A stretch of 64,000 nt of DNA from Antrihabitans stalagmiti (GTDB lineage Bacteria; Actinomycetota; Actinomycetes; Mycobacteriales; Mycobacteriaceae), in assembly GCF_016482825.1 (NCBI RefSeq), contig NZ_JAEMNV010000004.1:1-64000 (forward strand). Reading direction: 5' to 3'. Every line of letters begins with the position of its first letter. Position 1 is the stretch's first letter. The notes beneath the pieces are model-generated. The model was not told the DNA's origin, searched no databases, and worked only from the letters and a program-made list of their open reading frames with translations. This document shows positions 129 through 50,046 of the stretch, one piece after another. Position numbers and translations under genes: made by a program.

Positions 129-167
129 CGCACCTCCAAAAAGACTCACGAGCGGCGAAGCCGCCTA
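129..167. repeat. Stop-codon palindromic element, copy 1 (half copy)
   Basis: The sequence carries the right half of the dispersed element: CCTCC, AAAAAGACTCACGAG, GCGGCGAAGCCGC, then CTA. The CTA at 165-167 is the TAG stop codon of lysX read on the minus strand. The matching left arm is degenerate, so this looks like a decayed or partial copy. Full copies are at 3793, 9255, 18003, 18688, 32921 and 49972. Confidence 0.75.
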
Positions 168-3100
168 TCGCGGTTTTGCGAGCGGGAAGGCCAGGGTTTC
201 CCTGATGCTGCCGCCGGTGATCAGCATGACCACACGATCGACGCCCATGCCCAACCCACCGGTAGGTGGCATCGCATGTTCGAGCGCCTGCAGGAAGTCC
301 TCGTCGAGTTCCATCGCTTCTTCGTCACCACCGGCAGCGAGCATCGACTGCTCGGTGAGCCGTTGGCGCTGATCGACCGGATCGGTCAATTCGCTGTAGG
401 CCGTGCCGAGTTCGATGCCCCACGCCACCAGGTCCCACTTGGCCGCGACATTGGGAATCGTCGGATGTGGCCTGGTCAGCGGCGACATCGAGGTGGGGAA
501 GTTGGTGTAGAAGGTCGGGAACTCGGTGTGGTCCTCGACCAGATGCTCGTACATCTCCTGCGCGACGGCACCTGCGTCCCACCCCGTCTGGTACGGAATT
601 TCGTTCTCGTCGCAGAGCCTACGAAGCTCGTCGAGCGGCGTTTCGGGTGTGACCTCGACGCCGAGCTTTTCGGCGACAGCGCCGTGCATCGTCTTGACCG
701 GCCACTCACCCGAGATGTCGACTTCGACGACCCCTCCGTCCGGAGCCGGCCGCAAGATGATCTGTCGACCGTGCGCTGCGACTGCCGCAGCCTGGATCAG
801 CTCGCGGCACAGCACCATCATCCGTTCGTAATCGCTGTGCGCCTCGTAGGCCTCGAGGATCGTGAACTCCGGATTGTGTTTGAAGTCGACGCCTTCGTTG
901 CGGAACACGCGCCCGATCTCGAACACCTTCTCCATCCCCGCGACGCACAGGCGCTTGAGGTACAGCTCCGGCGCGATTCGCAGGTACAGGTCGAGGTTGT
1001 AGGCGTTGATGTGCGTTTGGAACGGCGCGGCATTCGCACCACCGTGGACCTGCTGCAGGATGGGCGTCTCGACCTCCATGTAGCCGAGAGCGGCGAACGA
1101 ATCGCGCAACGACTTGACGACGGCACTACGAGCCACGATCAGTTTGCGGGCATCACGATTGATCGCCATGTCCACATACCGCTGGCGGACCCGAGCTTCG
1201 GGGTCGGACAAGCCCTTCCATTTGTCGGGCAGCGGATGCAGGCACTTGCCGGTCATCCGCCACTCGGTTGCAAGCAGCGACAGCTCACCCTTGCGGCTCG
1301 TCCCGATCGTTCCGCTCACTTCGATCAGGTCACCGAGGTCGAAGAACGACGCGAACTCCTCGAGCTTCTCGGCGCCGACGGTGTTTCGATCGATGAGCAG
1401 CTGTATGTCGTCGGTCCAGTCGCGCAGCACCGCGAAGGTAACGCCGCCGTAGTCGCGGATCCGCAGCAACCGCCCGGCGAGGCGGACCTTCGTCCCTGGC
1501 GGTGACGTGCGTGCTTTGGCGACCGTATGGGTCGGCGGGTAAGCGACGGGATAGGCATCGACGCCCGCATCGCTGAGCTTGGCGAGTTTGGCCATCCGGA
1601 CGCGGACCTGATCGGGTCGGCGGGGTCCGGTCTCGGCGGCAAGCTCGGGGATGTCGGGTGCACTGCCGTCGGAGTGCAGCAGTCCGCTGGTCGCGAGCGC
1701 CTGCGGAACCGCTTCGTGAGTTCCGGTGTGTTTCGTTGCCGAGTCCCGACCGAACCGCGGGATGAAGCCTTCGGCGATGGCCGACGCGATGCCGACGCGG
1801 GGGAGTTCTCTGTTGTCTTCGAAGCAGAGATAGCGGGGTTCCCACTCGGGCTGGTATTTCACGTTCGAGCGGTACAGGGCTTCCAGCTGCCACCAGCGTG
1901 AGAAGAACAGCAGGATGCCGCGCCACAGCCGCAGAATCGGCCCGGCACCGATGCGCCCGCCCTCCTCGAACACCGACCTGAACACGGCGAAGTTCAGCGA
2001 CACCCTGGTGATGCCGATCTTGTCGGAGTTCAGTGCAAGCTCGGCGACCAGCAACTCCATGACGCCGTTGGGCCCCTGCGGGTCTCGGCGCATCAGGTCG
2101 AGCGACACTCCGGACCGACCCCACGGCACCAGCGAAAGCATCGCCCACACGCGGTCGTCGGGGTCGACGCATTCGACGAGCAGGCAGTCACCGTCGAGGC
2201 TGTCACCGAGGCGGTCGAGGGCCATCGAGAAGCCGCGCTCGGTTTCGGTGCCGCGCCACGAATCGGCACGCCGAATCACCTCGGCCATCTCGGCCTGCGG
2301 AATGTCGCGATGACGTCGCATCCGGACCGACAGGTTCTGCTTCCGCAGTCGGTTGACGGCTTGGCGGACCGGCTTCATCTCGCTGCCGTTGAGGTTGAAC
2401 TGCCGGGTGTAGAGGATGGCCTCGTCGCCGAGTTGCAGTACCGACAGACCCGCGCGTTTGTAGGCCGTCGCTCCGAGTTCGCTCGCGCCCATCACGGCAG
2501 GTGCCCAGCCGTAGTGTTCGGCGAGTTCGAGCCAGGCGTCGATCGCGTGCGGCCAGGCTTCCTTCGGTCCGATCGGGTCGCCGCTGGCGAGGCAGACACC
2601 GAGTTCGACGCGGTAGGTGACCGCTGCCTTGCCGCTCGGGGCAAAAATGACCGCCTTGTCGCGGCGGGTGGCGAAGTAGCCGAGTGAATCCTCCACGTCG
2701 GACCGGTCCAGCAGGCCGCGGATCGCGGATTCGTCGTTGCCGGTGAGCGCGTTGGTGGAGCGTTGTGAACGGAACAGCGTGATGACCGCAGCAAGCAGCG
2801 CAAGGGCGCCGAGAAATCCGAGCAGGACGTTGACGAGGCCGTGTGTGTGTCCGTCGAACTGCTCGTTGTCGACGACGACGAGTGCGGTGACGCGATTCAG
2901 CGCCCAGAGCGGCTTCTCCGAGCCCTCGAGTGTTCCGGGGAACAGTTCGACCAGACCCCACCCGAGCAGAGTGCCAACCGTCAGCCCCGCGACGAGAACG
3001 CCGAGCGCCTTCCAGGCGGCACCGCGTCGCACCCGGGTGTAGAACTCGGACCTGCCTGCTATCAACAGACCGATCACCGCGACGTGAACGACGATCGCGA

Positions 3101-3488
3101 CCATCGCGTTGACGTCGCGGTCCTGCACGATCTCGTACACGTTGCCGATGGTGAACAACGTGAGGTATCCGACCAGCAGCCACCACGCGATCCGCTTGCG
3201 ACTGGCGAGCGCACCGGCTAGCAACGCGACGACGAACGCCCACGCGAGGCTGGTGTCGGGTGCGTCGAAGTAATAGGAGTCCACGTATTCGCGTGGTGTC
3301 TGCGTCACATGACGTAGGACCGGCGAGATGCTCCAGAAGAAGCACAGCACGGCGAAGATTCCGACGATCAACCCGGCGATGTGCGGAAGTTCGGATAGCT
3401 TGCCGTGCTTGCGGATCCGATGAGGAACCGCGGGTGTCGATGCGGGTTGCTCGGCCCCGATCGCGGGATCTTCCACCTTGCTCGTCAC
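165..3488 (-). CDS. lysX: LysX: lysylphosphatidylglycerol synthetase fused to lysyl-tRNA synthetase
   Basis: Two-domain enzyme that charges tRNA with lysine and transfers the lysine to phosphatidylglycerol, giving a membrane lipid linked to resistance to cationic peptides. The N-terminal third has about six to seven membrane segments (roughly residues 30-260). A DUF2156/MprF-type transferase domain follows (about 270-600), then an OB-fold (about 660-760) and a class II synthetase core. Class II motif 2 is seen at [15 protein letters not shown] and motif 3 at [12 protein letters not shown] near the C-terminus. At about 1107 residues it is close to the mycobacterial LysX length. I chose GTG at 3488 because GAAGGG lies nine bases upstream; a TTG at 3512 would add eight residues. 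The TAG stop lies in a dispersed palindromic element. Confidence 0.95.
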
Positions 3489-3556
3489 TTGCTTCGACCC
3501 TTCACGTGTCAATGTTGATCACACGTTAGTCCCGTTGAGCGTTCAAGATAGGTGTC

Positions 3557-3799
3557 ATGCCGAGCCGAGATTTTCAGATAGACGACGTCCCCATCCGCGA
3601 CGAGGTGATCAGGCTCGGCCAGTTCCTGAAACTGGCCAATCTGATCGACAGCGGTGCCGAGGCGAAGGGTGTGATCGCCGACGGTCTGGTCAGTGTGAAC
3701 GGCGAGATCGAGGTCCGCCGCGGACGGCAGTTGCACACGGGCGACGTGGTCTCGATCGGTGCTGCGTCGGCGCGAGTCATGGGCCCCCGGCCCTCGTGA
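3557..3799 (+). CDS. Small S4-domain RNA-binding protein
   Basis: An 80-residue protein made almost entirely of an S4 RNA-binding fold of the YbcJ/YaaA type. The pattern IRLGQFLKLANLIDSG, then VNGEIEVRRGRQL and GDVV, is typical of the family. Such proteins bind structured RNA, often ribosomal; the target here is unknown. It is divergent from lysX, with 68 bp between the starts. The final residues RPS and the TGA stop are encoded by the left arm of palindromic element copy 2 (TCGTGA), so the gene end and the repeat are fused. Confidence 0.85.
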   Translation: MPSRDFQIDDVPIRDEVIRLGQFLKLANLIDSGAEAKGVIADGLVSVNGEIEVRRGRQLHTGDVVSIGAASARVMGPRPS

Positions 3800-3853
3800 G
3801 CACTTTCGGAGGGCGGAACCTCCGAAAGGACTCACGAGCGGCGTAGCCGCCTA
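3793..3853. repeat. Stop-codon palindromic element, copy 2 (between convergent genes)
   Basis: Left arm 3793-3812 and right arm 3819-3838 pair over 20 bp with two mismatches (CTCGTGAG.., CTTTCGGAGG loop). A small GC hairpin GCGGCGTAGCCGC follows and the element ends in CTA. It sits exactly between two convergent genes and supplies the stop codon of both: TGA (3797-3799) for the S4 protein and TAG (3851-3853, minus strand) for the RraA gene. It would also work as a bidirectional terminator hairpin. Confidence 0.85.
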
Positions 3854-4324
3854 CGCCCGGACAACGACTCCGTCGTCGTCGCTGTAGACGGTCTCGCCAG
3901 GGACGAAGGTGACTCCGCCGAACTCGAGCGCTACATCCTTGTGGCCTGCGCCGGTCTGCGTGCTCTTACGCGGATTGGTCCCGAGGGCCTTGATTCCGAT
4001 GTCGAGGGTGCGAAGGATCGCCGAGTCGCGGACAGCACCGTTGACGATCACTCCGGCCCACCCGTTGTCGACCCCGCGGCCGGCGATGATGTCGCCGACC
4101 AGCGCCGTGTGGACGCTCGCGTCGCCGTCGACGACGAGCACTCCGCCGTTGCCCGGTTCGCTGAGGGTCTGCTTGACGAGCAGGTTGTCCTGGAAGCATT
4201 TGATCGTGGTGATCGGACCGGAAAACACTGCGCGGGCGCCGAATTGGATGAACTGCGTGTCGCAACTGCGAATGTCGGGACCGATTTCGTCGGCTAGGTC
4301 AGCTGTGGCTACTGGCTCGCTCAT
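3851..4324 (-). CDS. rraA: RraA/MenG-family protein (RNase E regulator or HMG/CHA aldolase-like)
   Basis: The protein is 157 residues, which I recall as the length of the M. tuberculosis homologue. The RraA fold is recognisable from [16 protein letters not shown], the [13 protein letters not shown] segment and the LGTNPRKS loop. Members either bind RNase E and reduce its activity or act as metal-dependent 4-hydroxy-4-methyl-2-oxoglutarate/oxaloacetate lyases. The [14 protein letters not shown] region carries the Arg-Asp pair of the lyase site, so an enzymatic role cannot be excluded. The start is ATG 4324 ([10 protein letters not shown]); longer frames upstream read into non-coding sequence. 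The TAG stop lies in palindromic element copy 2. Confidence 0.88.
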
Positions 4325-4352
4325 GGAACCAACCCTAGAACAGCGGTAGCGC

Positions 4353-4961
4353 TCACACCGTGGTGAAGGCCAATCGAGCCGCGAGGCCGAGGAAGGACAC
4401 CGCGAAAAGACGCTGTAACGACAGCAGGACATGCGGACGGGACGTGACGTGTTGCCGCAGCGCTGCTGCCGTCAACCCGTAGCCGACGAATATCGCGAGA
4501 GTGACAACCATGAATACCGCACCGAACGTAAGCGTTTCGACGAATGCTCCCGAACTCCCCTCGTCGAGGAACTGCGGAAGGAGCGCAAGAAAGAACAACG
4601 TGAGTTTCGGGTTGAGAAGGTTGATCAGGATGGCGGTACCGATCGTTCGCAGCGCGGACGTGGGCGGAGCGTCGCCCGCGGCCAATGCGCCGGAGTTTCG
4701 CAGCATGGACACGGCCATATAGAGCAGATAGCCGACGCCGGCCCATCGGAGCACCTCGAACGCGACGGCACTCGTCGACACCACCAGCGCTGCTCCGGAA
4801 GCGGCAAGCACAAGGTGCGGGACGATGCCGAGGGTGCATCCCACGGCTGCCACGACACTGGCTCGCGCACCACGAGCAACGCCCGCAGCGACGGTGAACA
4901 GCGATCCTGTGCCTGGCGTCGCCGTCACCACAATGGCGGTAATCCAGAATTCCATGGTCAT
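4353..4961 (-). CDS. LysE/RhtB-family amino-acid exporter
   Basis: The 202-residue protein has about six hydrophobic segments and the LysE-family signature near the N-terminus ([15 protein letters not shown], compared with the usual ATPGP motif). A second conserved block is [19 protein letters not shown]. Members export amino acids or related small metabolites across the cytoplasmic membrane. It is divergent from a MocR-type regulator with only 28 bp between the starts, a common regulator/exporter arrangement, so the regulator probably controls it. ATG 4961 is chosen; ATG 4955 is an alternative two codons later. The substrate is unknown. Confidence 0.88.
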
Positions 4962-4989
4962 GTTTCGAGTTTCGTAGAACCATGGACCA

Positions 4990-6468
4990 GTGGACAGGGC
5001 CAAAGATGCGCGCAACGACAGGTCCATAAAGGGTGGGAGCAGCTTCCTGTCGCTCGATGCAGCCACCCTCGCTGAGCAAGCCGGAGACAAGGCGGGCTGG
5101 CTCGCCGAGCGGATCCGCGAAGCGGTGAACACCGGACACCTCGTCGCCGGGGAGCGACTGCCACCGAGTCGGGTACTTGCCACCGAGCTCGGGGTATCCC
5201 GCGGGGTCGTCACCGAGTCCTACACCCGCCTTGCCGACGCGGGTCTTGTTGCCGCGCTGGGGCGTGGCGGGACAGTCGTGTGTGGCGGGCCGAGTGCAGC
5301 GCGGCCGAATCCGAACAACGCTGCTCGGATTCCGACAGCGACCGTCGATCCCTTCGGATCGACAGCCGACTTCGAAACGCTCAGGGCCGCATCATGTCGC
5401 ATCGATCTGAGCCCCGGCGTACCGGATGTACGCAGCTTTCCCCGCGCGGCATGGCTGCGTGCCGAACGCACAGTGTTGTCGACGGCGCAGTTGACCGATC
5501 TCGCCTACGGGCAGGCGCAGGGAGCGCTACCGCTCCGCACCGCGATCAGTCGCTGGGTGGCACGGACCCGAGGAATCACGTGTCTGCCCGACGACGTGAT
5601 CGTCGTTGCCGGCGTGGCGCAAGCGTTGAGCCTGCTTGCGCATCAGCGCAAGGCCAACGGTGCCGCCACGGTAGCCGTGGAAGATCCAGGATCGCTCGGC
5701 GCGCGCCAACAACTCAACGCGTGGGGAATCCGCACCCCGGCGATCCCCGTCGACGACGACGGACTCGATGTCGATGCACTGCGACAGCACACCGCGAGCA
5801 CGGTAATGGTCACTCCCGCACACCAATTCCCGACCGGAGTGGTGCTGACCGGACAGCGGCGCGTCGAACTGCTCGAATGGGCCCGCAACGGCAACCTCGT
5901 GATCGAAGACGACTACGACGCCGAACATCGCTACGACCGCCGCCCGGTACCCGCCCTCGCTGCCGACGAACCGGAGTCGGTCTACTACATGGGCAGCGTG
6001 TCCAAAATCCTCGCTCCCGCGTTGCGAATCGGGTGGGTCATCGCGCCGAGATCGATGACAGCAGCGATTGTCGACCTGAAAAGGGACACCGATCTCGGAA
6101 ATGCAACCGTGCCGCAACTGAGCCTGGCCCACCTGATGAACTCGGGTGATCTCGAACGGCACCTGAGAACGATGCGGTCGCGACACCGTCGTCGGCGCGA
6201 CGTCATGATCGGCGCCTTGCGCACGCGAATCCCGCACGCCGTCATCGTCGGTGCGGCGGCTGGGCTGCATCTGACGATCCTGCTACCCGACGACCTCGAC
6301 GACACCGCGGTGGCGGCACGGTGCCTGCAGGCCGGTGTCAAGATGCACCCACTGTCCTGGCACAGGCAGAGCCCCGGTCCTCCTGGATTGGTACTCGGAT
6401 ATGCAGCATCGACCGAGGCCGACATCGCCGAGGGGATCGACGCTGTCGCGCAATCGATTGCGGAGTAG
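4990..6468 (+). CDS. MocR/PdxR-type GntR regulator with aminotransferase domain
   Basis: The 492-residue regulator has a winged-helix GntR DNA-binding domain at about residues 30-100 (ERLPPSRVLATELGVSRG). A class I aminotransferase-like domain follows from about 120 to the end. The PLP lysine is expected in YMGSVSKILAPALRIGW, and the partner Asp/Tyr region is IEDDYDAEHRYDR. MocR proteins use PLP or an aldimine as a signal to control vitamin B6, GABA or amino-acid genes. GTG 4990 is the only reasonable start before the HTH. The position suggests control of the divergent LysE exporter, and possibly of the downstream gabD2 in the same direction, 42 bp away. Confidence 0.92.
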   Translation: MDRAKDARNDRSIKGGSSFLSLDAATLAEQAGDKAGWLAERIREAVNTGHLVAGERLPPSRVLATELGVSRGVVTESYTRLADAGLVAALGRGGTVVCGGPSAARPNPNNAARIPTATVDPFGSTADFETLRAASCRIDLSPGVPDVRSFPRAAWLRAERTVLSTAQLTDLAYGQAQGALPLRTAISRWVARTRGITCLPDDVIVVAGVAQALSLLAHQRKANGAATVAVEDPGSLGARQQLNAWGIRTPAIPVDDDGLDVDALRQHTASTVMVTPAHQFPTGVVLTGQRRVELLEWARNGNLVIEDDYDAEHRYDRRPVPALAADEPESVYYMGSVSKILAPALRIGWVIAPRSMTAAIVDLKRDTDLGNATVPQLSLAHLMNSGDLERHLRTMRSRHRRRRDVMIGALRTRIPHAVIVGAAAGLHLTILLPDDLDDTAVAARCLQAGVKMHPLSWHRQSPGPPGLVLGYAASTEADIAEGIDAVAQSIAE

Positions 6469-6510
6469 CTTTGGTGTGAATCGCACAACCACTCACTTTC
6501 GAGGTGCCCC

Positions 6511-8067: not shown

Positions 8068-8181
8068 CCAACCGCTTCCCCGGTAAGGCTGCGCTTACCT
8101 GAATTGGGTCGGCAACTGCCACGAATTACCTGATCCCGGCCATGAGATCTGCGACACAGCAGACGGCTGGGTTAACACTCC

Positions 8182-8235: not shown

Positions 8236-8427
8236 ATCTCACTGCGGTCACGCTGCGGCTGTCAGGAAACGTACACATTGCGGCTACCGAATCGTCGCCG
8301 AACCGTCGTCAATCGTCCGTTAGATGCATCTGTCGAAGGCCTCAAAACTGATCTGCAGCAATGCCTTTCGTCTTCGGGCGGTCATGCCCGGGGTGCAGGT
8401 CACAAAACGATAAGGAACCGCGAGAAG

Positions 8428-9123: not shown

Positions 9124-9206
9124 AACCCGCGCTACCAGCGGAATCAGGGCTCCCCTGACCACGCTCACCGGCGTGAGGGGCACCCTCGCTCCACGCGGTC
9201 GCTGAC

Positions 9207-9245
9207 CGAAACGGCCCGTCTCCCTCGCGGAGGCGGGCCGTTTCG
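9207..9245 (+). terminator. Intrinsic-type terminator after the secreted-protein gene
   Basis: A 17-bp stem (CGAAACGGCCCGTCTCC paired with GGAGGCGGGCCGTTTCG, one mismatch) closes a 5-base loop, 84 bp after the stop at 9123. The 3' side ends in TTTCGG rather than a long T-run, as is usual in high-GC actinobacteria. Palindromic element copy 3 follows immediately. Confidence 0.8.
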
Positions 9246-9254
9246 GCGCCGCGG

Positions 9255-9314
9255 TCGTGAGTCTTTTCGGAGGGTGGGCGCGCCGAAAAGACTCACGAGG
9301 CGCGGAGCGCCCTA
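9255..9314. repeat. Stop-codon palindromic element, copy 3
   Basis: A perfect 16-bp stem, TCGTGAGTCTTTTCGG (9255-9270) with CCGAAAAGACTCACGA (9283-9298), is followed by the small hairpin GGCGCGGAGCGCC and CTA. The CTA (9312-9314) is the TAG stop of the copD-like gene on the minus strand. It separates that gene from the convergent secreted-protein gene. Confidence 0.85.
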
Positions 9315-10265
9315 CGCCGTTGTCGCGAGCGCTGCAGCGAGTCCGAAGACCACCGCCATCGCGACCACCTCGATGATCGCCCGACGCAGCGACTCGTCCG
9401 CCTCCATACGGTGCGCCGCCGCCTGTCGGACCCAGGTTCGACGCCACCACCAACCGAGGCCGACGAGCAGTACGAGCACAACAGTCTTCGCCAGCACCAC
9501 ACGGCCGTACGCGGTATCGAACAGCGGACCGAAGGCCCCGATCCGCACCGCCGCATTGACGACTCCGCTCACGGTGAGCACCACCACGAACCGCCACGCC
9601 CACTCCGAATACCGCGGCAGCAATTCCGCCCAGCCACCCCGGGTTCGGACCAGCAACGCCAGCGCCGCGAGCAGTCCGAACCACAGCCCAGCAGCCAGCG
9701 CGTGGGTCGCTCCGAGCAAGGCACCGAACGGTTGCAACGACATGTGGCCCGTGATCGGCCGGATCACCAGCGCGAGGGCGCTCAGCACCAACGCCGGATC
9801 GGCCGACCAGTTCGCGTTCTGCCGAAATGCGACCGCTGCGTACGCGACCAACCCTGCGGTACACGCGACCGCAGCAATGCCGACCTGACCCGAACTGATG
9901 TGCGTCAGGAACGAAAGAAATTGGCTCGCGCCGAGATCGGAGACCCTACTGGATTCGACGTCGGACGCTTCGAAGGCAAGCAGCACGATCTCCGCGACGG
10001 TCCATACCCCGGCCGCGATCGCCATCGGCCGCCAAAGATCTTGCTGGGAAACAACTTTGCGCCGACCGCTCGTCTGCAATCGGCCGATCGCGGCCAAACC
10101 AAGCACGAGTGCGCCCATACAGTCGGCGATCACCCGAACCATGCTGGACGGCTGTGGCTGGGCAGGCGCGGCCAATTGCCACGCCAGGCTGACCCCGAGC
10201 GCGGCGGTGGGTACGGCAAGCAGCAGAGCCCATCTGCTCACACTGCCGGCCGTACCCGCTGCCAT
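9312..10265 (-). CDS. copD: CopD-family membrane protein (copper transport or resistance)
   Basis: The 317-residue integral membrane protein has about eight hydrophobic segments and a C-terminal CopD domain. CopD/YcnJ-type proteins are thought to move copper across the cytoplasmic membrane together with periplasmic CopC. Conserved His residues occur in ITGHMSLQ and GATHALAAGLW. The gene is last in a leftward set after ycnI- and copC-like genes, only 2 bp after the copC stop. Its own TAG stop is the edge of palindromic element copy 3. The direction of transport is not shown by the sequence. Confidence 0.88.
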   Translation of the reverse strand: MAAGTAGSVSRWALLLAVPTAALGVSLAWQLAAPAQPQPSSMVRVIADCMGALVLGLAAIGRLQTSGRRKVVSQQDLWRPMAIAAGVWTVAEIVLLAFEASDVESSRVSDLGASQFLSFLTHISSGQVGIAAVACTAGLVAYAAVAFRQNANWSADPALVLSALALVIRPITGHMSLQPFGALLGATHALAAGLWFGLLAALALLVRTRGGWAELLPRYSEWAWRFVVVLTVSGVVNAAVRIGAFGPLFDTAYGRVVLAKTVVLVLLVGLGWWWRRTWVRQAAAHRMEADESLRRAIIEVVAMAVVFGLAAALATTA

Positions 10266-16082: not shown

Positions 16083-18005
16083 GTGACATCGCAAGTCGAG
16101 CAATTGGAGTTCCAGGCGGAAACGCGTCAGCTGTTGGATCTGATGATCCATTCCGTCTACTCGGAGAAGGACATCTTCCTGCGGGAACTTGTCTCCAACG
16201 CGTCCGATGCCTTGGACAAGTTGCGGCTGGAAGCGTTCCAGAACAAAGAGCTCGATGTCGATACGTCCGACCTGCACATCGACATCGACATCGACAAAGA
16301 GGCCCGCACGCTGACAGTGCGCGACAACGGCATCGGGATGTCGCGTGACGAGGTCGTCGATCTGATCGGCACGCTCGCGAAGTCCGGCACCGCGGACCTG
16401 CGCCGCAAGCTCGCCGAGGCGAAGGACTCGGCTGCGCCCGAAGAACTTATCGGGCAGTTCGGCATCGGCTTCTACTCGAGCTTCATCGCCGCCGACAAGG
16501 TCACGCTGGTGACCCGACGCGCAGGCGAGACCGAGGCGACCCGGTGGGAGTCGGAAGGTGAAGGCACCTACACGATCGAAACTCTGGCCGAGGCTCCGCA
16601 GGGAACGTCGGTCACGCTGCATCTGAAGCCGGCCGACACCGAAGATCACCTGTACGACTACACGGCGCCGACCAAGATCAAGCAGATCATCAAGCGCTAC
16701 TCCGACTTCATCGCGTTCCCGATTCGCATGGAGGTCGAGACGACGGCGCCGGCCGACGACGAATCCGAAGAGGTAACTCGGCAGATCGAGACCGAGACGA
16801 TCAACTCGATGAAGGCGCTATGGACGCGATCCAAGAGCGACGTGAGCGACGAGGAATACAAGGAGTTCTACAAGCACGTCAGCCATGCCTGGGACGAGCC
16901 GCTCGAGATCATCCCGCTCAAGGCCGAGGGCACGTTCGAGTACCAGGCGCTGCTGTTCATCCCGTCGCAGGCGCCGTACGACATGTTCATGCGCGAGGCG
17001 AAGCGTGGCGTGCAGCTCTACGTCAAGCGCGTCTTCATCATGGACGACTGCGAAGAACTGATGCCCGAGTACTTGCGCTTCGTGAAGGGTGTCGTCGACG
17101 CGCAGGACCTGTCGCTCAACGTTTCTCGCGAAATCCTGCAGCAGGACCGCCAGCTGAAGCTGATCCAGCGACGCCTCGTGAAGAAGATCCTGTCGACGGT
17201 CAAGGACATGCAGGCCAACAACGCCGAGAAGTACACGACGTTCTGGTCGCAGTTCGGTCGTGTGCTCAAGGAAGGTCTGCTCTCGGACTTCGACAACCGC
17301 GACGCCATCCTCGGCGTCTCGTCGTTCGCGTCGACGAACTCGACCGAGGACCAGACGTCACTCGCCGAATATGTTGCCCGGATGCCCGAAACGCAGGAGC
17401 AGATCTACTACGTCACCGGTGAGTCCCGGCAGCTGATCGAAAGCTCGCCGCACATGGAAGCGTTCCGTGCCCGCGGACTCGAGGTGCTGCTGCTGACCGA
17501 TCCGGTCGACGAGATGTGGGTCGGGTCGGTGCCGGAATTCGACGGCAAGCCGTTCCAGTCGATCGCGAAGGGTGAGGTCGACCTCGACAGCGAGGAAGAG
17601 AAGAAGGCCGCCGAGGCCGAGCGGGAAGAGCAGAGCAAGGAGTTCGCCGAGCTCCTGACCTGGATGACCGCGACGCTGTCGGAGACGGTCAAGGAGGTCC
17701 GGCTTTCGTCGCGACTCGTCGATTCGCCTGCCTGCATCGTGAGCGACGAGTTCGGGTTCTCGCCGACGCTGGAGAAGATGTATCGCGCGTCGGGTCAGTT
17801 CGTGCCGCCGACCAAGCGGATCCTGGAACTCAACCCGACGCACGGCCTGGTCGAGGGTCTGCGGAAGGCGCACGCAGAGCGTCCCGACGACGAGGCACTC
17901 GCCGACACCGCCGAGATCGTCTACGGCATGGCGTTGCTCGCCGAGGGTGGCGAACTGACCGATCCGGCGCACTTCACCAAGCTGCTGGCGAAGCGCCTGA
18001 TTTAG
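16083..18005 (+). CDS. htpG: Chaperone HtpG (bacterial Hsp90)
   Basis: The 640-residue ATP-dependent chaperone is cytoplasmic and normal in length for actinobacteria. The GHKL ATPase domain is complete: [23 protein letters not shown] and [17 protein letters not shown]. The middle domain has [14 protein letters not shown] with the catalytic-loop Arg, and the C-terminal dimerisation domain is present. GTG 16083 is supported by GAAGGGA eight bases upstream. No CIRCE or HAIR operator was seen. The TAG stop (18003-18005) is the first three bases of palindromic element copy 4. Confidence 0.97.
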
Positions 18006-18076
18006 GGCGCTGCGCGCCTCGTGAGTCTTTTTGGAGGGTGGGAGCGCCGAAAAGACTCACGAGCCGGTGCGGCCCA
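18003..18076. repeat. Stop-codon palindromic element, copy 4 (between convergent genes)
   Basis: The element begins TAG-GGCGCTGCGCGCC. The long arm CTCGTGAGTCTTTTTGG is followed by a G-rich loop and CCGAAAAGACTCACGAG, then GCCGGTGCGGCCC. It gives htpG its TAG stop on the plus strand and the convergent methyltransferase gene its TGA stop (18057-18059) on the minus strand. Only 51 bp separate the two reading frames. Confidence 0.85.
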
Positions 18077-18687: not shown

Positions 18688-18762
18688 TAGGCGGCACGCC
18701 GCTCGTGCGTCTTTTGCGACGTCAGGACCACCGAAAAGACTCACGAGCCGCGTAGCGGCCTA
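18688..18762. repeat. Stop-codon palindromic element, copy 5
   Basis: The element runs from TAG-GCGGCACGCCG, through CTCGTGCGTCTTTT with a diverged loop, to CCGAAAAGACTCACGAG, GCCGCGTAGCGGC and CTA. The CTA (18760-18762) is the TAG stop of the cholesterol-oxidase-like gene. It lies between two genes in the same direction, directly upstream of the methyltransferase start. Its central loop is the most diverged of the full copies. Confidence 0.8.
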
Positions 18763-32920: not shown

Positions 32921-32996
32921 TAGGCGGCTACGCCGCTCGTGAGTCCTTTCGGAGGGCGGACCCTCCGAAAGGACTCACGAGGCGCGAAGCGCCCTA
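32921..32996. repeat. Stop-codon palindromic element, copy 6 (most complete)
   Basis: This is the best copy: TAG, small hairpin GCGGCTACGCCG, then a perfect 21-bp stem CTCGTGAGTCCTTTCGGAGGG / CCCTCCGAAAGGACTCACGAG around a 4-base loop. A second small hairpin GGCGCGAAGCGCC and CTA end it. The whole unit is therefore itself a TAG...CTA inverted repeat. CTA (32994-32996) is the TAG stop of sodA. Confidence 0.9.
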
Positions 32997-39038: not shown

Positions 39039-40130
39039 TCAGCAGCAGTCGCAACAATCGCAGCAGTCGCTGCAGTCGGATCGCTTGTTGTTGTTGTTTC
39101 CCCGGCACCAGCCGCGTTTGGGGCGGCGGTCCCATGGATCTTCGTAGGGGTCCTTGCAGCAGAGTTGGCCCGTGCAGCACAACCCTGTCCACACGGCGCA
39201 GCCCGAGAATGCGCCACGTCGCGGCGGTGGCGGCGGCTGATAGGGCGGTTGGTAGGACGGGCCGTACGGGTCGTAGCTGCCGAAGACGCGATTGACCGAC
39301 TCGGCTAGTTCGTGGGCGAGAAGTTGGTGCGCCAACCTCGAATCATGGCTGTAATCAACGTCTTTCAAGGCAAGTCGGATGCCGATGACGGCGTCGTCGC
39401 AGAGGTTCCGTGCTTGTGTGCGGTCGGTATCGGTGACGGCCAGAGGATTGAAGGCGCCGGTAGCCGTGTCTGTCTGGTGGTCTTCGACGGCGTCGAGGAG
39501 GTGGGCGAGGCGGCCGAAGAGTTTGCCTGCTTCGGCGAGTGGTGTGGCGTTGTGGGGTTTGTCGGCGAGGTGTGCGGTGTGGGCGAAGGCGGCGGCGGTG
39601 GCTGTTTCGGTGGGTTCGGTGAGGGTGAGCAGTGCGGTGGTGGGTCCGGCGGTGTGTTCGAGGGTGGTTTGGCGGTCGACGGCGTCGAGGAGGATGGTGG
39701 GGTCGAAGCCGAGGGTGGTGGTGGTTCCGGTGCCGGCGCGGTCCCAGGTGGTGGCGATGCGTTTGGCGGCTGCGGCGATCGGTTTTCGGGCCATGACGCC
39801 GTCTTTGTCGGCGATGTGGTCGCGGACTTTGGCGGAGGCGAGGATGAGGGAGACGCCGGCGGCGAGGTGGGCTCCTTCGCCGGTGGCGACGGTGGCGGTG
39901 CGCATGCCGCGGAGTGGGCAGGGTCCGGCGGTGCGGCGGTCGGGTGTGGGGTGGTCGGTTTGGGCTTCGGTGAGGACGGAGATGACGAGTCCGTCGTAGT
40001 TGGTTGCGATGCGGGCGAATTGGCCGTGGTCTTTGCGGAGGGCGAGGCAGAGGCCGCAGAGGTGGGCCAGCCATTGGGTTTGCATGTCCTCGCTGAGCCG
40101 GTGTCGACACGGCCGCACAATCCCGAACAT
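39039..40130 (-). CDS. DUF5685-family protein with cysteine-rich tail (copy A)
   Basis: The 363-residue protein has a helical N-terminal domain with conserved Cys/His (VRPCRHRLS, AHLCGLCLALRKDHG) and NYDGLV. Its C-terminal tail carries 13 Cys in about 58 residues (GLCCTGQLCCKDPY, ending DCSDCCDCCDCC), which looks metal-binding or metallothionein-like. The two parts are joined by a Pro/Tyr linker. The first 653 bp match copy B (44812-45464) except for one silent base, while the linker and tail differ. The block has a C/A-rich coding strand unlike its neighbours. Function is unknown; metal storage or a scaffold is a guess. Confidence 0.85.
   Translation of the reverse strand: MFGIVRPCRHRLSEDMQTQWLAHLCGLCLALRKDHGQFARIATNYDGLVISVLTEAQTDHPTPDRRTAGPCPLRGMRTATVATGEGAHLAAGVSLILASAKVRDHIADKDGVMARKPIAAAAKRIATTWDRAGTGTTTTLGFDPTILLDAVDRQTTLEHTAGPTTALLTLTEPTETATAAAFAHTAHLADKPHNATPLAEAGKLFGRLAHLLDAVEDHQTDTATGAFNPLAVTDTDRTQARNLCDDAVIGIRLALKDVDYSHDSRLAHQLLAHELAESVNRVFGSYDPYGPSYQPPYQPPPPPRRGAFSGCAVWTGLCCTGQLCCKDPYEDPWDRRPKRGWCRGNNNNKRSDCSDCCDCCDCC
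39478..40130 (-). repeat. Near-identical 653-bp block shared by the two DUF5685 genes (copy A)
   Basis: The block begins exactly at the start codon (40130) and ends inside codon 218. It equals 44812-45464 with a single difference (GTTGCGATG compared with GTGGCGATG, silent). Both copies are in the same direction, 5.3 kb apart. Upstream and downstream sequences diverge at once, which suggests gene conversion or a recent partial duplication. Confidence 0.95.
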
Positions 40131-44315: not shown

Positions 44316-44318
44316 AAG

Positions 44319-45464
44319 TCAGCAGTCGCAGCTGCAACAATCGCCACAGTCGCAGCAGCAACCGTCGCAATCGCAGCAATCGGCGCACCCGGAGCAGCAG
44401 TCACAGCCGACGCACCAACCCTGTTTCGGTTCGCCCGTCCATGGGCTGTGATACGGATCGGCACAACAGATCTGGCACGTGCAGAACAGTCCGCTCCACA
44501 CCGCGCAACCCTGGATCAGCCCACGCCTCGGACGCTGCGGCGGTGGCGGTTGGTCCCACGGCAGGTTCGGCACCTGGGGGTTGAACTGCAGGTCGGAGTT
44601 GTGGTTGTGGCTGTCGCCGAAGACGCGGTGGACCGATTCGCGGACTTCGTGGGCGAGGAGTTGGTGGGCAAGCTGTGAATCCTGGAGGTCCACGTCCTTC
44701 AGCGCCAGGCGAATTCCGCGGACCGCGTCGTTGCAGAGTCGCCGGGCCTCGTGGCGTGTGGTGCCGGTGACGGTCAACGGGTTGAAGGCGTTGGCCGCTG
44801 CGTCCGATTGCTGGTCTTCGACGGCGTCGAGGAGGTGGGCGAGGCGGCCGAAGAGTTTGCCTGCTTCGGCGAGTGGTGTGGCGTTGTGGGGTTTGTCGGC
44901 GAGGTGTGCGGTGTGGGCGAAGGCGGCGGCGGTGGCTGTTTCGGTGGGTTCGGTGAGGGTGAGCAGTGCGGTGGTGGGTCCGGCGGTGTGTTCGAGGGTG
45001 GTTTGGCGGTCGACGGCGTCGAGGAGGATGGTGGGGTCGAAGCCGAGGGTGGTGGTGGTTCCGGTGCCGGCGCGGTCCCAGGTGGTGGCGATGCGTTTGG
45101 CGGCTGCGGCGATCGGTTTTCGGGCCATGACGCCGTCTTTGTCGGCGATGTGGTCGCGGACTTTGGCGGAGGCGAGGATGAGGGAGACGCCGGCGGCGAG
45201 GTGGGCTCCTTCGCCGGTGGCGACGGTGGCGGTGCGCATGCCGCGGAGTGGGCAGGGTCCGGCGGTGCGGCGGTCGGGTGTGGGGTGGTCGGTTTGGGCT
45301 TCGGTGAGGACGGAGATGACGAGTCCGTCGTAGTTGGTGGCGATGCGGGCGAATTGGCCGTGGTCTTTGCGGAGGGCGAGGCAGAGGCCGCAGAGGTGGG
45401 CCAGCCATTGGGTTTGCATGTCCTCGCTGAGCCGGTGTCGACACGGCCGCACAATCCCGAACAT
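44319..45464 (-). CDS. DUF5685-family protein with cysteine-rich tail (copy B)
   Basis: The 381-residue paralogue of the protein at 39039-40130 is identical over its first 217 residues. The linker is Asn/Pro-rich. The tail is longer and carries 21 Cys, mostly as CC, DC and GC pairs (VGCDCCSGCADCCDCDGC), sharing the frame GCAVW.GL..C..Q.CC.DPY and GWC with copy A. ATG 45464 (MFGIVRPCRH) is the start. Two versions of one sensor-like domain with different metal-type tails point to distinct metal capacity or partners (inference). Confidence 0.85.
   Translation of the reverse strand: MFGIVRPCRHRLSEDMQTQWLAHLCGLCLALRKDHGQFARIATNYDGLVISVLTEAQTDHPTPDRRTAGPCPLRGMRTATVATGEGAHLAAGVSLILASAKVRDHIADKDGVMARKPIAAAAKRIATTWDRAGTGTTTTLGFDPTILLDAVDRQTTLEHTAGPTTALLTLTEPTETATAAAFAHTAHLADKPHNATPLAEAGKLFGRLAHLLDAVEDQQSDAAANAFNPLTVTGTTRHEARRLCNDAVRGIRLALKDVDLQDSQLAHQLLAHEVRESVHRVFGDSHNHNSDLQFNPQVPNLPWDQPPPPQRPRRGLIQGCAVWSGLFCTCQICCADPYHSPWTGEPKQGWCVGCDCCSGCADCCDCDGCCCDCGDCCSCDC
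44812..45464 (-). repeat. Near-identical 653-bp block shared by the two DUF5685 genes (copy B)
   Basis: This block pairs with 39478-40130 at 652 of 653 positions. Recombination between these direct repeats would delete the kinase and permease genes and leave one DUF5685 gene. Confidence 0.95.
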
Positions 45465-45584
45465 TCTTCCACCCTTTGCGCTGAAGAAACAGGTGCTCAC
45501 TACTTAGCAGACGGCATGCAATTCTGCTGTCTGTACGCGCACACTCGGTCCGCGTGCCGGGTGAGCGGTGTAGGTTTTGGCGTC

Positions 45585-46487
45585 GTGGCAAAGAAGAGCA
45601 AGAGGAACAGTCCGAAGCCGGGTAGCAATCGCGCGGAGAAGATCGCCGAGCGCAAGGCCGCGCTCGAGCAGGCGTCGACCGCGATCACGAGACCGTTCGA
45701 AGGTCTGGAGGCCGAATGCGACCTCGTTGCCCTTCGCGAGTTCGTGCCGTCGGCGACGGCGCCGCTACCGGTGACCAGCGGTGAGTCCATCGTTGTTGCG
45801 ACGGTTCTGCCGGGTGCGGTAGCTGCCCTTACCCGCGAGGAGAACGGTGCGCGAATCGGGTACGTCGGCGTACAGGTTCAGGTGCAGTCCGGCGACCCAG
45901 CCGCCGACCTCGGCGCTGCGATCGCATGGGCATCGGCGGCCAATGCGGGCGAATCGCTCGCTGCTGCCGGACCCGACGAGACGTCACCTCGACTCGCAGA
46001 CGTCATCGATGCGACTGCGGCACTGGACATTACGGTCCACAGCGATTTCAACTGGTGGATCCCGGAAGGTGTCGAACCGGCAGCCGACGTCGCTGCAACG
46101 GTCACCCAGGCCAATGCCGCGATCATGCCGTCGGCACGGCTCGATGGAGTTTCTGCCGCGTGGTGGGTCGACGCCGGAGACAAAGCGCATCTGCGGTGGG
46201 TTCGGCCCGAAGACGAGGACGAGTTGATGCTCGCGCTCGCACGCGTTCACGCCGCGGGCAATCTCAATCTCGGCGAAGGCTCACGATTCGCCGGATCGTT
46301 CCGCACCCACGGCCTGCTCGTTCCGGTCTTCGATCTCGACCCCGAACGTCATCCGAGTGAATGGAACAGCGCCACCGCGCAACTGGGTGAACGCCTCGCC
46401 GACGCCCTCGCCGTCGAAGGTCCGCTGACCTCCGACGAGCGACGGGCGCGCGACGGTCTGCGTGGCCGTCAGGTCACGCTGCGGTGA
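45585..46487 (+). CDS. DUF5926-like conserved protein
   Basis: The 300-residue soluble protein has a basic N-terminus (MAKKSKRNSPKPGSNRAEK), then an acidic alpha/beta body with FNWWIPEGVEP, LRWVRPEDEDELMLALARVH and FRTHGLLVPVFDLD. It matches, from memory, the actinobacterial DUF5926 family of unknown function. The basic start resembles SecA C-terminal or ribosome-associated tails, but no zinc motif is present. GTG 45585 is chosen. It is divergent from DUF5685 copy B and convergent with the ferritin gene (10-bp gap). Confidence 0.8.
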   Translation: MAKKSKRNSPKPGSNRAEKIAERKAALEQASTAITRPFEGLEAECDLVALREFVPSATAPLPVTSGESIVVATVLPGAVAALTREENGARIGYVGVQVQVQSGDPAADLGAAIAWASAANAGESLAAAGPDETSPRLADVIDATAALDITVHSDFNWWIPEGVEPAADVAATVTQANAAIMPSARLDGVSAAWWVDAGDKAHLRWVRPEDEDELMLALARVHAAGNLNLGEGSRFAGSFRTHGLLVPVFDLDPERHPSEWNSATAQLGERLADALAVEGPLTSDERRARDGLRGRQVTLR

Positions 46488-46497
46488 GTTACACCAG

Positions 46498-47043
46498 TTA
46501 GATCGCGCCGCCCGCAGCGGTGGGTGCACCGGAGGTTTCGGCGGGTGCGCCCATCTCGCGGGCGACGAACTCCTCGAGATCGAACAGGTTCGCTCCTGCT
46601 CGGTCGGCGATCGTGAGCAGCGTCGTCACGGTGGCAACCTCTTCGATCTGCTCCTTCAGGAACCACTGCATGAACTGCTCGCCGAGGTACTCGCCCTCGT
46701 CGCGGGCGGTGCTCGCCAGCTGGATGATCTGTTCGGTGACCGTCTTTTCCTGCGCGAGGGCCAGTGCAATCGGCTCGCGCGCGTCGGCGAATTCCGACTT
46801 GGCGGCATCGACACCGCTGAGCTCGACACTCATATCGCGGTCGAGGAAATACTGAATGATCATCATCGCGTGGTTACGCTCTTCGACGGCCTGGGCGTAG
46901 AAGTGTTTGGCCAACTGCGGCAGATCCGCATTGTCGAACCAGACAGCCGTTGCGATGTACTGATGTTCGGCGTTGTATTCGTGTCGAATCTGGTCGTGGA
47001 GTAGGGAATGGAACTTGCTTCTCTGAGTCTGCAACGAAGTCAT
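46498..47043 (-). CDS. bfrB: Ferritin BfrB
   Basis: The 181-residue non-haem ferritin stores iron in a 24-subunit shell. The sequence follows mycobacterial BfrB closely: QIRHEYNAEHQYIATAVWFD, the ferroxidase ExxH in VEERNHAMM, and FMQWFLKEQIEE. The C-terminus keeps the GAPTAAGG extension of BfrB. ATG 47043 (MTSLQTQ) is chosen. An iron box lies about 54 bp upstream, so IdeR probably activates it when iron is plentiful, as in M. tuberculosis. A paralogue lies directly upstream. Confidence 0.95.
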   Translation of the reverse strand: MTSLQTQRSKFHSLLHDQIRHEYNAEHQYIATAVWFDNADLPQLAKHFYAQAVEERNHAMMIIQYFLDRDMSVELSGVDAAKSEFADAREPIALALAQEKTVTEQIIQLASTARDEGEYLGEQFMQWFLKEQIEEVATVTTLLTIADRAGANLFDLEEFVAREMGAPAETSGAPTAAGGAI

Positions 47044-47096
47044 GACAACCAACATATCCGCTGGTCAGGGCACCTGTCATGCAAGTCCATCCTTAT

Positions 47097-47115
47097 TTAG
47101 GGCAGTGTTCCCTAA
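47097..47115 (-). promoter_or_regulatory. IdeR-type iron box upstream of bfrB
   Basis: TTAGGGCAGTGTTCCCTAA is a 19-bp dyad with the TTAGG...CCTAA ends of the IdeR/DtxR box. It is the core of a longer 12-7-12 palindrome (47091-47121, one mismatch). Small hairpins just left of the second ferritin gene (47123-47154) probably end that transcript. Confidence 0.8.
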
Positions 47116-47140
47116 TTAAGGCGCGCCTATTACGTAGGCG

Positions 47141-47698
47141 TTATACGCCGCCTCCGGCAACGCGAGGAGCGCTCGGATCCCGCCCCGCAGCACCCCCGAA
47201 ATCGCGAGCAACGAAGTCTTCGACGTCGAACAAATTGCCATCGGCGCGGTCGACTACCGCAAGGAGAGTCGTCATACTCGCGACTTCCTCGACCTGTTCT
47301 TTGAGAAACCACTGAATGAATTGTTCGCCGAGATAGTCACCGGACGAGCGAGCTGTCTGCGCGAGCTGGGTGATCTTCGTCGTCACGTCCCGTTCCTGAT
47401 TCAGCGCGAACTCGACGGCGCCGCGGACCGAGGTGACCGTGGAGGTGATCGGGTCGAGTCCGCCGACGCGAACCGGAACATCGCGGTCGAGCAGGTACTG
47501 CACCATCATCAGCGCGTGCGAGCGCTCTTCGGCGGCCTGCGCGTAGAACCGGCGAGCCAGCTGCGGAAGCTTGTTCGAGTCGAAATACACGGCAATGACG
47601 ATGTATTGCTGCGACGCGGTGAACTCGTGCCGGATCTGCTCGCGGAGGAGTTCGTGGAAAGCGCTGTCGCTGTTGACATTCGAATTCGACATAGGCAT
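47141..47698 (-). CDS. Second ferritin (BfrB paralogue)
   Basis: The 185-residue ferritin is clearly homologous to its neighbour, with ferroxidase residues kept (QIRHEFTASQQYI, AEERSHALMM, QWFLKEQVEEV). It has a longer polar N-terminus (MPMSNSNVNSDS) and a diverged C-terminus. ATG 47698 or ATG 47692 may be used; neither has a strong ribosome site. It is upstream of bfrB in the same direction, but the iron box between them suggests separate control. The shells may be mixed or condition-specific (inference). Confidence 0.9.
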   Translation of the reverse strand: MPMSNSNVNSDSAFHELLREQIRHEFTASQQYIVIAVYFDSNKLPQLARRFYAQAAEERSHALMMVQYLLDRDVPVRVGGLDPITSTVTSVRGAVEFALNQERDVTTKITQLAQTARSSGDYLGEQFIQWFLKEQVEEVASMTTLLAVVDRADGNLFDVEDFVARDFGGAAGRDPSAPRVAGGGV

Positions 47699-47732
47699 TG
47701 AGGTTACAAGGCCGCAGAGCTGGATTGGGACG

Positions 47733-49130
47733 CTACGGTCCCGTCGTGATCAGCTCGGGCGGAATCGGCTCGTCGTTGGCAAGCGCGCCGAAGAACTGAG
47801 CCGCGCGGGCATCGTCCCAGAGCAGCACGTTGCCGGACCCGTCGACGTCTTCGAAGCCTGAGATCGGCACTGTTGTCGTGATCATTTCCCCGCGCAGCGC
47901 CCAGCCGAGCCGCGCGAGGTCGGTCATGCCGTCGCCGCGGTCGACCTTCAGCGATTCGACGGCGCCCTTGGCGAACGGCAGCAGCTTGAACGGGTTGAGC
48001 ACGGTGGTCGGGCTCGTCGACTTCTTCAACAGTGCTGACATAAATTGGCGCTGCCGATTGATCCGGTCGAGGTCGGCGAGTGGGGTCGCGCGACTGCGAA
48101 CAACCCCCAGCGCCTCGGCGCCGTTCAATTTCTGGCACCCACCGGGCAGGTTGATGCCTGCCAAGGGATCGTCGATCGGCTGGTCGAGACACATATCGAC
48201 GCCGCCGAGCGAGTCGACCAAGCCGGCGAAACCGTCGAAGCCGATCTGCGCGTAGTGGTCGATGTGTACGCCCGTCGCACCTTCGATGGTTTGCACAAGC
48301 AGAGCGGGTCCGCCGATCGCGAAGGATGCGTTGACCTTGTCGGTCCCGTTGTCGGGGATCGCGAGATAGGAGTCGCGGGGGATGCTCACCATGACCGCCG
48401 GACCCGACTTGGGCAGGTGGATCAGGATGATCGTGTCGGTCCGCTCGGGCCCGGTGTCACCGCCGGTTGCGAGCGCTTGCTCCTCCTCGGGCGTCAGTCC
48501 GGTTCGGCTGTCGGAGCCGACGAGCAACCAGTTGGTGCCGGGTGTGTCGGCGACGCGGCCCGGATAGTCGACGAGCGCGTCGACCTTCTCCAGCGGCAGC
48601 GTGACGATGTAGACCGCGATGCCGATCAGAACCAGCAACAGAATCAACGGCAGCAGCAGGATCCGTCGGACCCAACGCCATGGACTGCGTCGTGTGCGAG
48701 CCCTCGGCGGGCGCGGCGGTGGACCGGTCGGGCCGGTACTGCGTCGAGATGGCGGTGGGGGTGGCGGCGACGCGGCATAGCGGGGTGGGCGTTCGGTGAA
48801 GCGCTCGGGCTGCTGCGTCGGGGCGTAGCGGACGCCGTCGTTGCGTTCGGGCGGTCGGTAGCCGGGTGGTGGACCGGCCGGGGGGCGCGGGGGCTGGGCC
48901 TGGCGTGGCGGCGGCTGCTGCGGAGGCCGGTAGTTCGGCTGCTGCGGCGCTTGCGACCAAGCCTGTGGCGTCGGTGGACGCACACTCGGGCGGCGCACGA
49001 ACTCCGTCTCCTCGGGTTCCGGGCGTCGGGGTGGTGGTGGCTGCCGTGGCGGCGGACCCTGCCGTGGGGGCGGCGATCTACGCGGCGGCGGTTGCCTGCC
49101 GGGTTCGTCGGAGAAGAAATCGCCGTTCAC
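47733..49130 (-). CDS. LytR-CpsA-Psr family glycopolymer transferase
   Basis: The 465-residue protein attaches cell-wall glycopolymers (arabinogalactan in mycolic-acid bacteria) to peptidoglycan. It has a long Pro/Arg-rich cytoplasmic N-terminus (about 1-150), one membrane helix (about 155-175) and the LCP domain outside. Catalytic Arg/Asp clusters are seen in LVGSDSRTG, ERTDTIILIHL, SIPRDSYLAI and DRINRQRQFM. GTG 49130 is the start. It follows the CPBP gene by 18 bp in the same direction and is probably co-transcribed with it. Confidence 0.92.
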   Translation of the reverse strand: MNGDFFSDEPGRQPPPRRSPPPRQGPPPRQPPPPRRPEPEETEFVRRPSVRPPTPQAWSQAPQQPNYRPPQQPPPRQAQPPRPPAGPPPGYRPPERNDGVRYAPTQQPERFTERPPRYAASPPPPPPSRRSTGPTGPPPRPPRARTRRSPWRWVRRILLLPLILLLVLIGIAVYIVTLPLEKVDALVDYPGRVADTPGTNWLLVGSDSRTGLTPEEEQALATGGDTGPERTDTIILIHLPKSGPAVMVSIPRDSYLAIPDNGTDKVNASFAIGGPALLVQTIEGATGVHIDHYAQIGFDGFAGLVDSLGGVDMCLDQPIDDPLAGINLPGGCQKLNGAEALGVVRSRATPLADLDRINRQRQFMSALLKKSTSPTTVLNPFKLLPFAKGAVESLKVDRGDGMTDLARLGWALRGEMITTTVPISGFEDVDGSGNVLLWDDARAAQFFGALANDEPIPPELITTGP

Positions 49131-49148
49131 GAGGGACGACTTTACGCA

Positions 49149-49955
49149 TCAAGGAAGCCAAGAGAGATGTCCGTGCAGCAGCGTGTAGCCGATGTAGGCC
49201 ACGACGTCGATGGTTGCGTGCGCTATCAGCAGTGGCCACAGCCGATTCGTCCTTTGCCAGAAGCGGCCGAAGACCAGGCCCATCACGACGTTTCCGATGC
49301 CGCCGCCGAGGCCTTGATACAGGTGATAGCTCCCGCGCAACAACGACGATGCGGCCAGACTCGCATTCTCCGACCAGCCGAGGCGTCGGAGGCGGGTGAT
49401 CAGATAGCCGACCACGAGCACTTCCTCGGCGACAGCGTTGGCGATGGCCGCGAGGACGAGCACAGGTAGCCGCCACCAATGGTCCTGCAGTCCGCTCGCA
49501 ACGATGGCGACGTTCAGGCCGAGCGCGTGCGCGACGAGATACAGCGCGAGGCCGGGCAGGCCGATCAGCGCTGCGAGTCCAAGACCTGGGACGACGTCGC
49601 CGCGCAATACGGGTTTGGCCAACCCGACCAGCCGAGGACCTACGCCGCTCCGCCACAGCAGATACAACCCGAGCGCCGCCCAACCACACAGCCGGAGCAC
49701 CCGCAGCAGTTGGTAGAGCAGGTCGATGAACGAGATCGACGACGCCGTCTGGTTGAGAGCGACGGATTGGTCCCCGATACCGCCCGCCGCGAGTGCGGAT
49801 TCGAGCAGCGAGATCGCCGCGCTGAGCCCGCTGAGACCGAACGTGACGACCAGAACGACCACGATCTCGATGCGGATGCCGATGCGTTCGTGCGAATCGG
49901 GCCCGGGTCGGTCGGATTCGGGTGGCTGCGAGCGCAGCCAGTCGGTGATCGGCAC
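49149..49955 (-). CDS. CPBP-family intramembrane metalloprotease
   Basis: The 268-residue protein has about seven helices. The CPBP motifs are present: AVAEEVLVVGYLITRL with the Glu-Glu pair and Arg, SYHLYQG with the His, and HATIDVVAYI at the end. Such proteins cut membrane substrates or anchor other factors. GTG 49955 is used. A palindromic element (copy 7) lies just upstream, so transcription probably starts in the few bases between or passes through it. Confidence 0.88.
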   Translation of the reverse strand: MPITDWLRSQPPESDRPGPDSHERIGIRIEIVVVLVVTFGLSGLSAAISLLESALAAGGIGDQSVALNQTASSISFIDLLYQLLRVLRLCGWAALGLYLLWRSGVGPRLVGLAKPVLRGDVVPGLGLAALIGLPGLALYLVAHALGLNVAIVASGLQDHWWRLPVLVLAAIANAVAEEVLVVGYLITRLRRLGWSENASLAASSLLRGSYHLYQGLGGGIGNVVMGLVFGRFWQRTNRLWPLLIAHATIDVVAYIGYTLLHGHLSWLP

Positions 49956-49971
49956 TCCGCGATTGTGCCTC

Positions 49972-50046
49972 AGGGCGCTCCGCGCCTCGTGCGTCTTTTC
50001 GGCGCGCCCGCCCTCCGAAAAGACTCACGAGCGGCGTAGCCGCCTA
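49972..50046. repeat. Stop-codon palindromic element, copy 7
   Basis: CAGGGCGCTCCGCGCC, CTCGTGCGTCTTTTCGG, a diverged loop CGCGCCCGCCC, then TCCGAAAAGACTCACGAG, GCGGCGTAGCCGC and CTA. The CTA (50044-50046) is the TAG stop of the DUF2470 gene. The left end reads CAG rather than TAG. It lies between two genes in the same direction. Confidence 0.85.

Follow-up and report, generated by a model that had tools for sequence, protein, structure and literature searches.

Why do nine genes in a single stretch of actinomycete DNA come to an end inside copies of one palindrome? The stretch analyzed here (hereafter the window) comprises positions 1 to 64,000 of contig NZ_JAEMNV010000004.1 of Antrihabitans stalagmiti (RefSeq assembly GCF_016482825.1), and an earlier, sequence-only reading of it had described seven copies of a palindromic element that supplies the stop codons of its neighbors, proposing a mobile or copied terminator module that inserts at, or replaces, gene ends and ends translation and transcription together. 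Direct reading of the sequence bears out the seven copies, six of which are two-armed, as well as the nine genes that stop within them, either at a TAG on the edge of the element or at a TGA within an internal TCGTGAG. When the whole genome and its relatives are taken into account, the element is probably a non-autonomous dispersed palindrome similar to the repetitive extragenic palindromes (REPs), inserted into or just after stop codons that already existed.

Copy number, anatomy and stop codons

The palindrome pattern occurs at 201 places in the whole genome of A. stalagmiti (G000) and at 202 in that of a congener (G003), and at none in the same-genus genomes G001 and G002. Matches to the arms with at most one mismatch number 197 and 194 in the 6.39 Mb of G000, and the reversed pattern gives none. 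A typical G000 copy consists of AGG, a small hairpin, TC, a 40-bp core (GTGAGTC...GACTCAC), GA, a second small hairpin and CCT. The core is made of 18-bp arms and a 4-nt loop; its foot follows GTGMGYS and its interior differs by species. Unselected stretches of the four genomes of the genus, scanned with lengths of 36-44 bp allowed, held 44 cores, 43 of them exactly 40 bp long; one match in that scan also appeared in the reversed G002 control. In a scan for GTGCGCG-type palindromes allowing 38-46 bp, about three quarters of the listed G002 places had 40 bp and the others 38-42 bp. In part the 40-bp length is a consequence of the scan patterns themselves: of 26 copies from two other genera (g23 and g27), 22 were chosen in this way, and the other four are also 40 bp long.

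The stems of the small hairpins in G000 have several sequences, which differ among copies, and they self-pair more often than shuffled controls (left 80%, right 73%, against 60% and 57%). The outer arms do not pair with one another (52% against 56% in shuffles), and one long hairpin is unsupported as the general fold across G000 copies. Folds of single copies range from three hairpins to one long hairpin, and the three copies folded as DNA gave z-scores of -11.1, -4.6 and -4.1. In G003 the outer arms are C-rich and replace the small hairpins, and one core position mostly varies together with its pairing partner. The mean likeness of the G003 cores to each other, at 92%, is above that of matching DNA anchors between species (68-81%), which suggests a recent spread. 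Contig C1 of G003 (for example at L054 and L060) carries, alongside the GTGAGTC family, another family of palindromes whose foot is GTGCGCG and whose interior has TCACCCC or TTACCCC; with exact feet, the GTGCGCG family was found at 76 places.

To relate the copies to gene ends we sampled 64 of about 200 copies in G000 and 62 of about 202 in G003, mostly those listed first by exact patterns, and used gene calls from a simple purpose-made caller that errs at some copies. A stop lies within 25 bp of the core edge in 50/64 G000 and 51/62 G003 copies; the corresponding figure for random positions is 3.3% in both genomes when these are placed uniformly, and 10.6% (G000) and 13.3% (G003) when they are confined to non-coding DNA. 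The enrichment is sharper at the modal offsets, which hold a stop in 50/64 and 44/62 copies as against 2.2% and 3.3% of random non-coding positions, in support of the proposal that the element is dispersed, copied and associated with gene ends. Among the 71 G000 stops, 33 lie at offset -15 (nearly all of them the edge TAG), 9 at -16 and 14 at +4, the last being the TGA of TCGTGAG. TAG is enriched at these stops (42/71 against 165/534 genes, P = 7e-6), which is what one would see if a leftover T were completed by the AG of the element.

The sequence at the edge is such that each reading frame can be closed: T followed by AGG makes TAG, TG followed by AGG makes TGA, and the run AGG CGG CTN CGC CGC TCG TGA closes the third frame. 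The sequence-only reading had counted the whole TAG among the shared parts of the element. Only its AGG is kept, and weakly; the edge base is T on just 21% of the 57 sides that lack a called stop, which means that this T is no constant feature of the element.

Gene ends with and without the element

If the element supplied most of these stops, orthologous genes without it should end elsewhere. The comparison covered 28 of 37 suitable gene tails, with copies in one G000 block (contig C1) compared separately. At 46 of 52 orthologous ends in the three relatives there is no palindrome of this superfamily. Of the edge-stop genes with an orthologue, 15/20 share their last residue, compared by eye, with one orthologue or more, and for 14 of those 15 an orthologue matching in this way lacks a palindrome there. 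The orthologues stop at TGA, TAA or TAG, and the remaining five genes differ at their ends by 1 to 3 residues. We therefore conclude that the stop mostly predates the copy. The claim that the element replaces gene ends or supplies most of the stops is thus unsupported, and the outcome that had been named in advance as its refutation, element-free orthologues ending at the same place, was found for 14 of the 20 edge-stop genes. Altered protein ends do occur at the internal TGA, where the tails were changed in all four G000 genes compared with a stop at +4.

These observations suggest how the element might come to lie where it does. Copies would insert into or directly after existing stop codons, leaving a T or TG behind, and the AGG of the element would restore this remnant to TAG or TGA. 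In a frame that misses the edge stop, the TGA within TCGTGAG would end translation after a few other residues, and the inserted copies would remain as hairpins in the 3' end of the mRNA or between cistrons.

The comparisons also bear on whether copies arrived anew or were changed in place. That palindromes are kept at orthologous sites as a rule can be rejected, as just six of the 52 ends have one. When junctions are taken from G003, neither of the two in a 400-kb block whose genes are also adjacent in G000 has a palindrome there in G000. At the stop of one gene (p0), G000, G002 and G003 each have a palindrome of a different family; uncounted and judged by eye, shorter hairpins are present at the p2 and p24 ends in G002, and another hairpin at the p1 end in G001. 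From such comparisons, spread looks to have been mostly by new insertion, with some preferred sites.

At L170 (~4047), in a gene pair that we take to be rph-rdgB, the G000 copy lies between two genes that overlap in G003 and, by eye, is in frame with the second gene and readable through; the second protein may thereby be some 25 residues longer close to its start.

Relatives, known repeats and rival explanations

Outside the genus the same architecture recurs. With at most two mismatches, the pattern was found in 34/301 genomes of the family (own genome included), representing 5/31 genera, and a degenerate pattern fixed at 40 bp in 10/298 genomes of the order (own genome included), representing 7/77 genera and two families; the reversed patterns gave 0 in both searches. 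In a separate scan of named genomes, the matches listed outside Antrihabitans were single ones. In genera g23 and g27 the tie to gene ends holds, with 22/26 copies lying at most 25 bp from a stop as against 3.8% of uniformly placed positions.

In the general sense the element is REP-like, in that there are many species-specific palindromic copies near gene 3' ends. Mycobacterial interspersed repetitive units (MIRUs), known from the same bacterial order, sit at stop/start overlaps of operon genes and are directional, often tandem and not known to be palindromic. According to passages of PMC3733652, REPs lie mostly <20 bp from where convergent genes end. The element resembles the repeats described there, which are short palindromes in many copies near gene 3' ends, in convergent and in same-strand pairs. 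The same passages (PMC3733652, Di Nocera et al. 2013) state that the termini of GTAG REPs often provide a TAG stop, so the principle of a repeat-supplied stop is already known. The sequence-only reading had named no description of the element, and for this particular family we found none in the open-access literature. Tagged REPs are placed there mainly in Proteobacteria, the GTAG kind being tied to the REP-associated tyrosine transposases (RAYTs), and the main text of PMC3733652 is without the words actino, Rhodococcus, Nocardia and Mycobacter. The element differs from GTAG REPs in lacking a conserved GTAG tag, as seen from the frequency of T at its edge (a CGTC tag was not looked for separately), and in the absence of a Y1_Tnp gene from the four genomes of the genus; in the latter respect it resembles the CGTC REPs, which in the passages of PMC3733652 are likewise without a dedicated transposase. 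It also differs from REPs in being a near-perfect palindrome, nearly always 40 bp long, with the foot GTGMGYS. Rickettsia palindromic elements (RPEs; 105-146 bp, also found inside genes) and YPAL (168 bp, which makes target duplications and is reportedly co-translated with the genes upstream of it) are, in passages of PMC2229807, likewise dispersed palindromes able to join neighboring reading frames; unlike YPAL as described there, our element shows no target duplication. The gene-end habit of REPs is thus seen in another phylum, without a RAYT found in the genus, and the old question of why such repeats occupy gene ends becomes testable through the comparison of empty and filled sites.

Several observations weigh against insertion into existing stops. 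On sides without a gene stop there is no base preference, and the stops are therefore not accounted for by a DNA target. Direct repeats of 5-8 bp, as would mark a target-site duplication, flank 1/64 copies in G000 and 0-1/62 in G003 per length, within the range of shuffles; 4-bp repeats number 9 against 4.4 expected, and the shuffle maximum reaches 9. No mobilizing enzyme came to light in the Y1_Tnp search or among proteins between close copy pairs: the RAYT family (Y1_Tnp, PF01797) was found in 0/4 genomes of the genus, which rejects it as the mobilizer family there, with 5/21 tested genomes positive and a control search positive in 5/14 known genomes, and no transposase was recognized on reading the called proteins in the intervals between the listed close pairs. 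The statement that no copy lies free of a gene end holds in the window and fails genome-wide. In G000, 14/64 copies have no called stop within 25 bp, and re-reading found a stop in four of these (one a weak open reading frame), which leaves about 10/64 free, six with flanking genes called as divergent. In family f14 the tie to stops is looser (15/32 copies near a stop against 4.1%), and in two f14 genomes 0/9 copies lie near a called stop. A palindrome is present at 6/52 orthologous ends (G003 3/17, G002 1/20, G001 2/15), above the background at other ends (26/297, 6/308 and 1/238, respectively), and at 3/4 G000 junctions of the 400-kb block whose genes are adjacent in G003 there is a palindrome of another family in that genome, one of them imperfect. 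The core arms in G000 show no covariation (paired in 86%, as in shuffles). Finally, second hairpins are rarer beyond copy-bearing ends in G003 (2/69 against 73/585 other ends), a deficit that would suit copies standing in for terminators.

Y1_Tnp genes occur in a few g22, g23 and g27 genomes (L157-L160), with no evident tie to palindrome copy number. In the two f14 genomes, perfect 40-bp palindromes of the form GTGAGTG...CACTCAC lie away from called stops (L294, L295, L299, L300, L303-L307), so that there the same 40-bp architecture is placed otherwise.

It is possible, if a tentative suggestion, that these palindromes form an order-wide set of mobile elements, with a near-constant 40-bp architecture, a GTGMGYS foot and an interior that changes freely, and that in the family of the window stop codons are truly targeted by some enzyme or by a process coupled to translation or transcription, the edges rebuilding the stop and sparing the neighboring protein. 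We consider it unlikely that the element is instead a module that terminates transcription in both directions, retained at gene ends by selection and homogenized in sequence within each species. Strong hairpins directly past stops, the few copies between divergent genes (2/62 in G003, 9/64 in G000), the palindromes at some orthologous junctions and the G003 deficit all speak for such a module, and like factor-independent terminators the element places a hairpin past the stop codon. Unlike these, it is a dispersed family of similar copies and has no T-tract after the hairpin, the mean number of T in 12 nt being 0.72 in G000 and 2.78 in G003. Nor would a terminator be expected to split tight same-strand, operon-like junctions, presumably recF-DUF721 and rph-rdgB among them, as several copies do; the convergent and same-strand shares of copies are those expected from the number of stops (P = 0.26, 0.19), a second hairpin lies beyond 5/71 copy-bearing ends in G000 against 57/560 others, and 46/52 orthologous ends do without the palindrome. 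One copy in the window (9255-9314) adjoins a separate hairpin at 9206-9246, a candidate native terminator; G003, where the copy is absent, has a similar hairpin after the same gene, and the one at 9206-9246 is therefore probably older than the copy. The case for the element as a terminator is accordingly weak, as is that part of the sequence-only reading, and on balance the evidence fits a REP-like repeat located in message 3' ends better than it fits a standard terminator. The family calls for caution before such hairpins are annotated as terminators.

By analogy, a post-transcriptional role could also account for the abutment of stop and core: a hairpin at the 3' end, shielding the mRNA terminus or delaying ribosomes on the stop codon, would be held at a selected spacing. 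The short stop-to-core distance in G000, G003 and g23/g27 is consistent with this, as is the ribosome stalling reported, in passages of PMC12306157, for those E. coli REPs that lie no more than 15 nt from a stop; with just ~200 copies in the genome and most tested orthologues lacking the element, we judge this role quite improbable. That old palindromes at fixed junctions were rewritten in place by recombination between copies, with no new insertions, seems very improbable indeed. The p0 stop, with its different palindrome in each of three genomes, fits such turnover, as does the identity of left and right outer arms in only 1/64 copies, and the 46/52 orthologous ends without a superfamily palindrome do not. 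Insertion into, or just after, existing stops remains the reading that we favor.

Copies in the window and at contig ends

Within the window, the first copy (129-167, minus strand) is only a half copy, consisting of the AGG edge, a small hairpin, TC and the first core arm, the other arm being unrecognizable; its TAG (165-167, minus strand) is the stop of a LysX-type gene at 165-3512 (lysyltransferase/LysRS by Pfam, from which the families of all nine genes are taken). The two-armed copy at 3793-3853 (core 3796-3835) ends two genes: the TGA at 3797-3799 (plus strand) within TCGTGAG closes an S4-domain gene (3557-3799), and the TAG at 3851-3853 (minus strand) an RraA-like gene (3851-4432). In the copy at 9255-9314 (core 9257-9296), the edge TAG (9312-9314) is the stop of a CopD gene on the minus strand (9312-10265). 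The copy at 18003-18076 (core 18021-18060) again serves two genes, with a TAG at 18003-18005 for an HSP90 gene on the plus strand and a TGA at 18057-18059 for a methyltransferase gene on the minus strand. The left arm is degenerate in the two-armed copy at 18688-18762 (core 18705-18744), whose TAG at 18760-18762 closes a GMC oxidoreductase gene (minus strand). The most regular copy (32921-32996) has a small hairpin on each side of its 40-bp core (32939-32978), and its TAG at 32994-32996 is the stop of an Fe/Mn superoxide dismutase (SOD) gene on the minus strand. The last two-armed copy (49972-50046, core 49989-50028) starts with AGGG, without the T of TAG, and ends with the TAG (50044-50046) of a DUF2470 gene on the minus strand.

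A scan of the window with Rfam gave 0 matches at the gathering score, and one copy compared with plasmid and phage records gave no match at E 0.01. The half copy sits ~130 bases from the contig start, and contigs C2, C3 and C4 of G000, together with several G003 contigs, likewise end ~130 bases past a copy, from which we infer that assemblies tend to break at these palindromes; the element thus accounts for contig breaks in these assemblies, and window bases 1-128, next to such a break, may be unreliable. Elsewhere in the window, two 300-nt stretches ~5.3 kb apart (39355-39654 and 44689-44988) are 87% alike.

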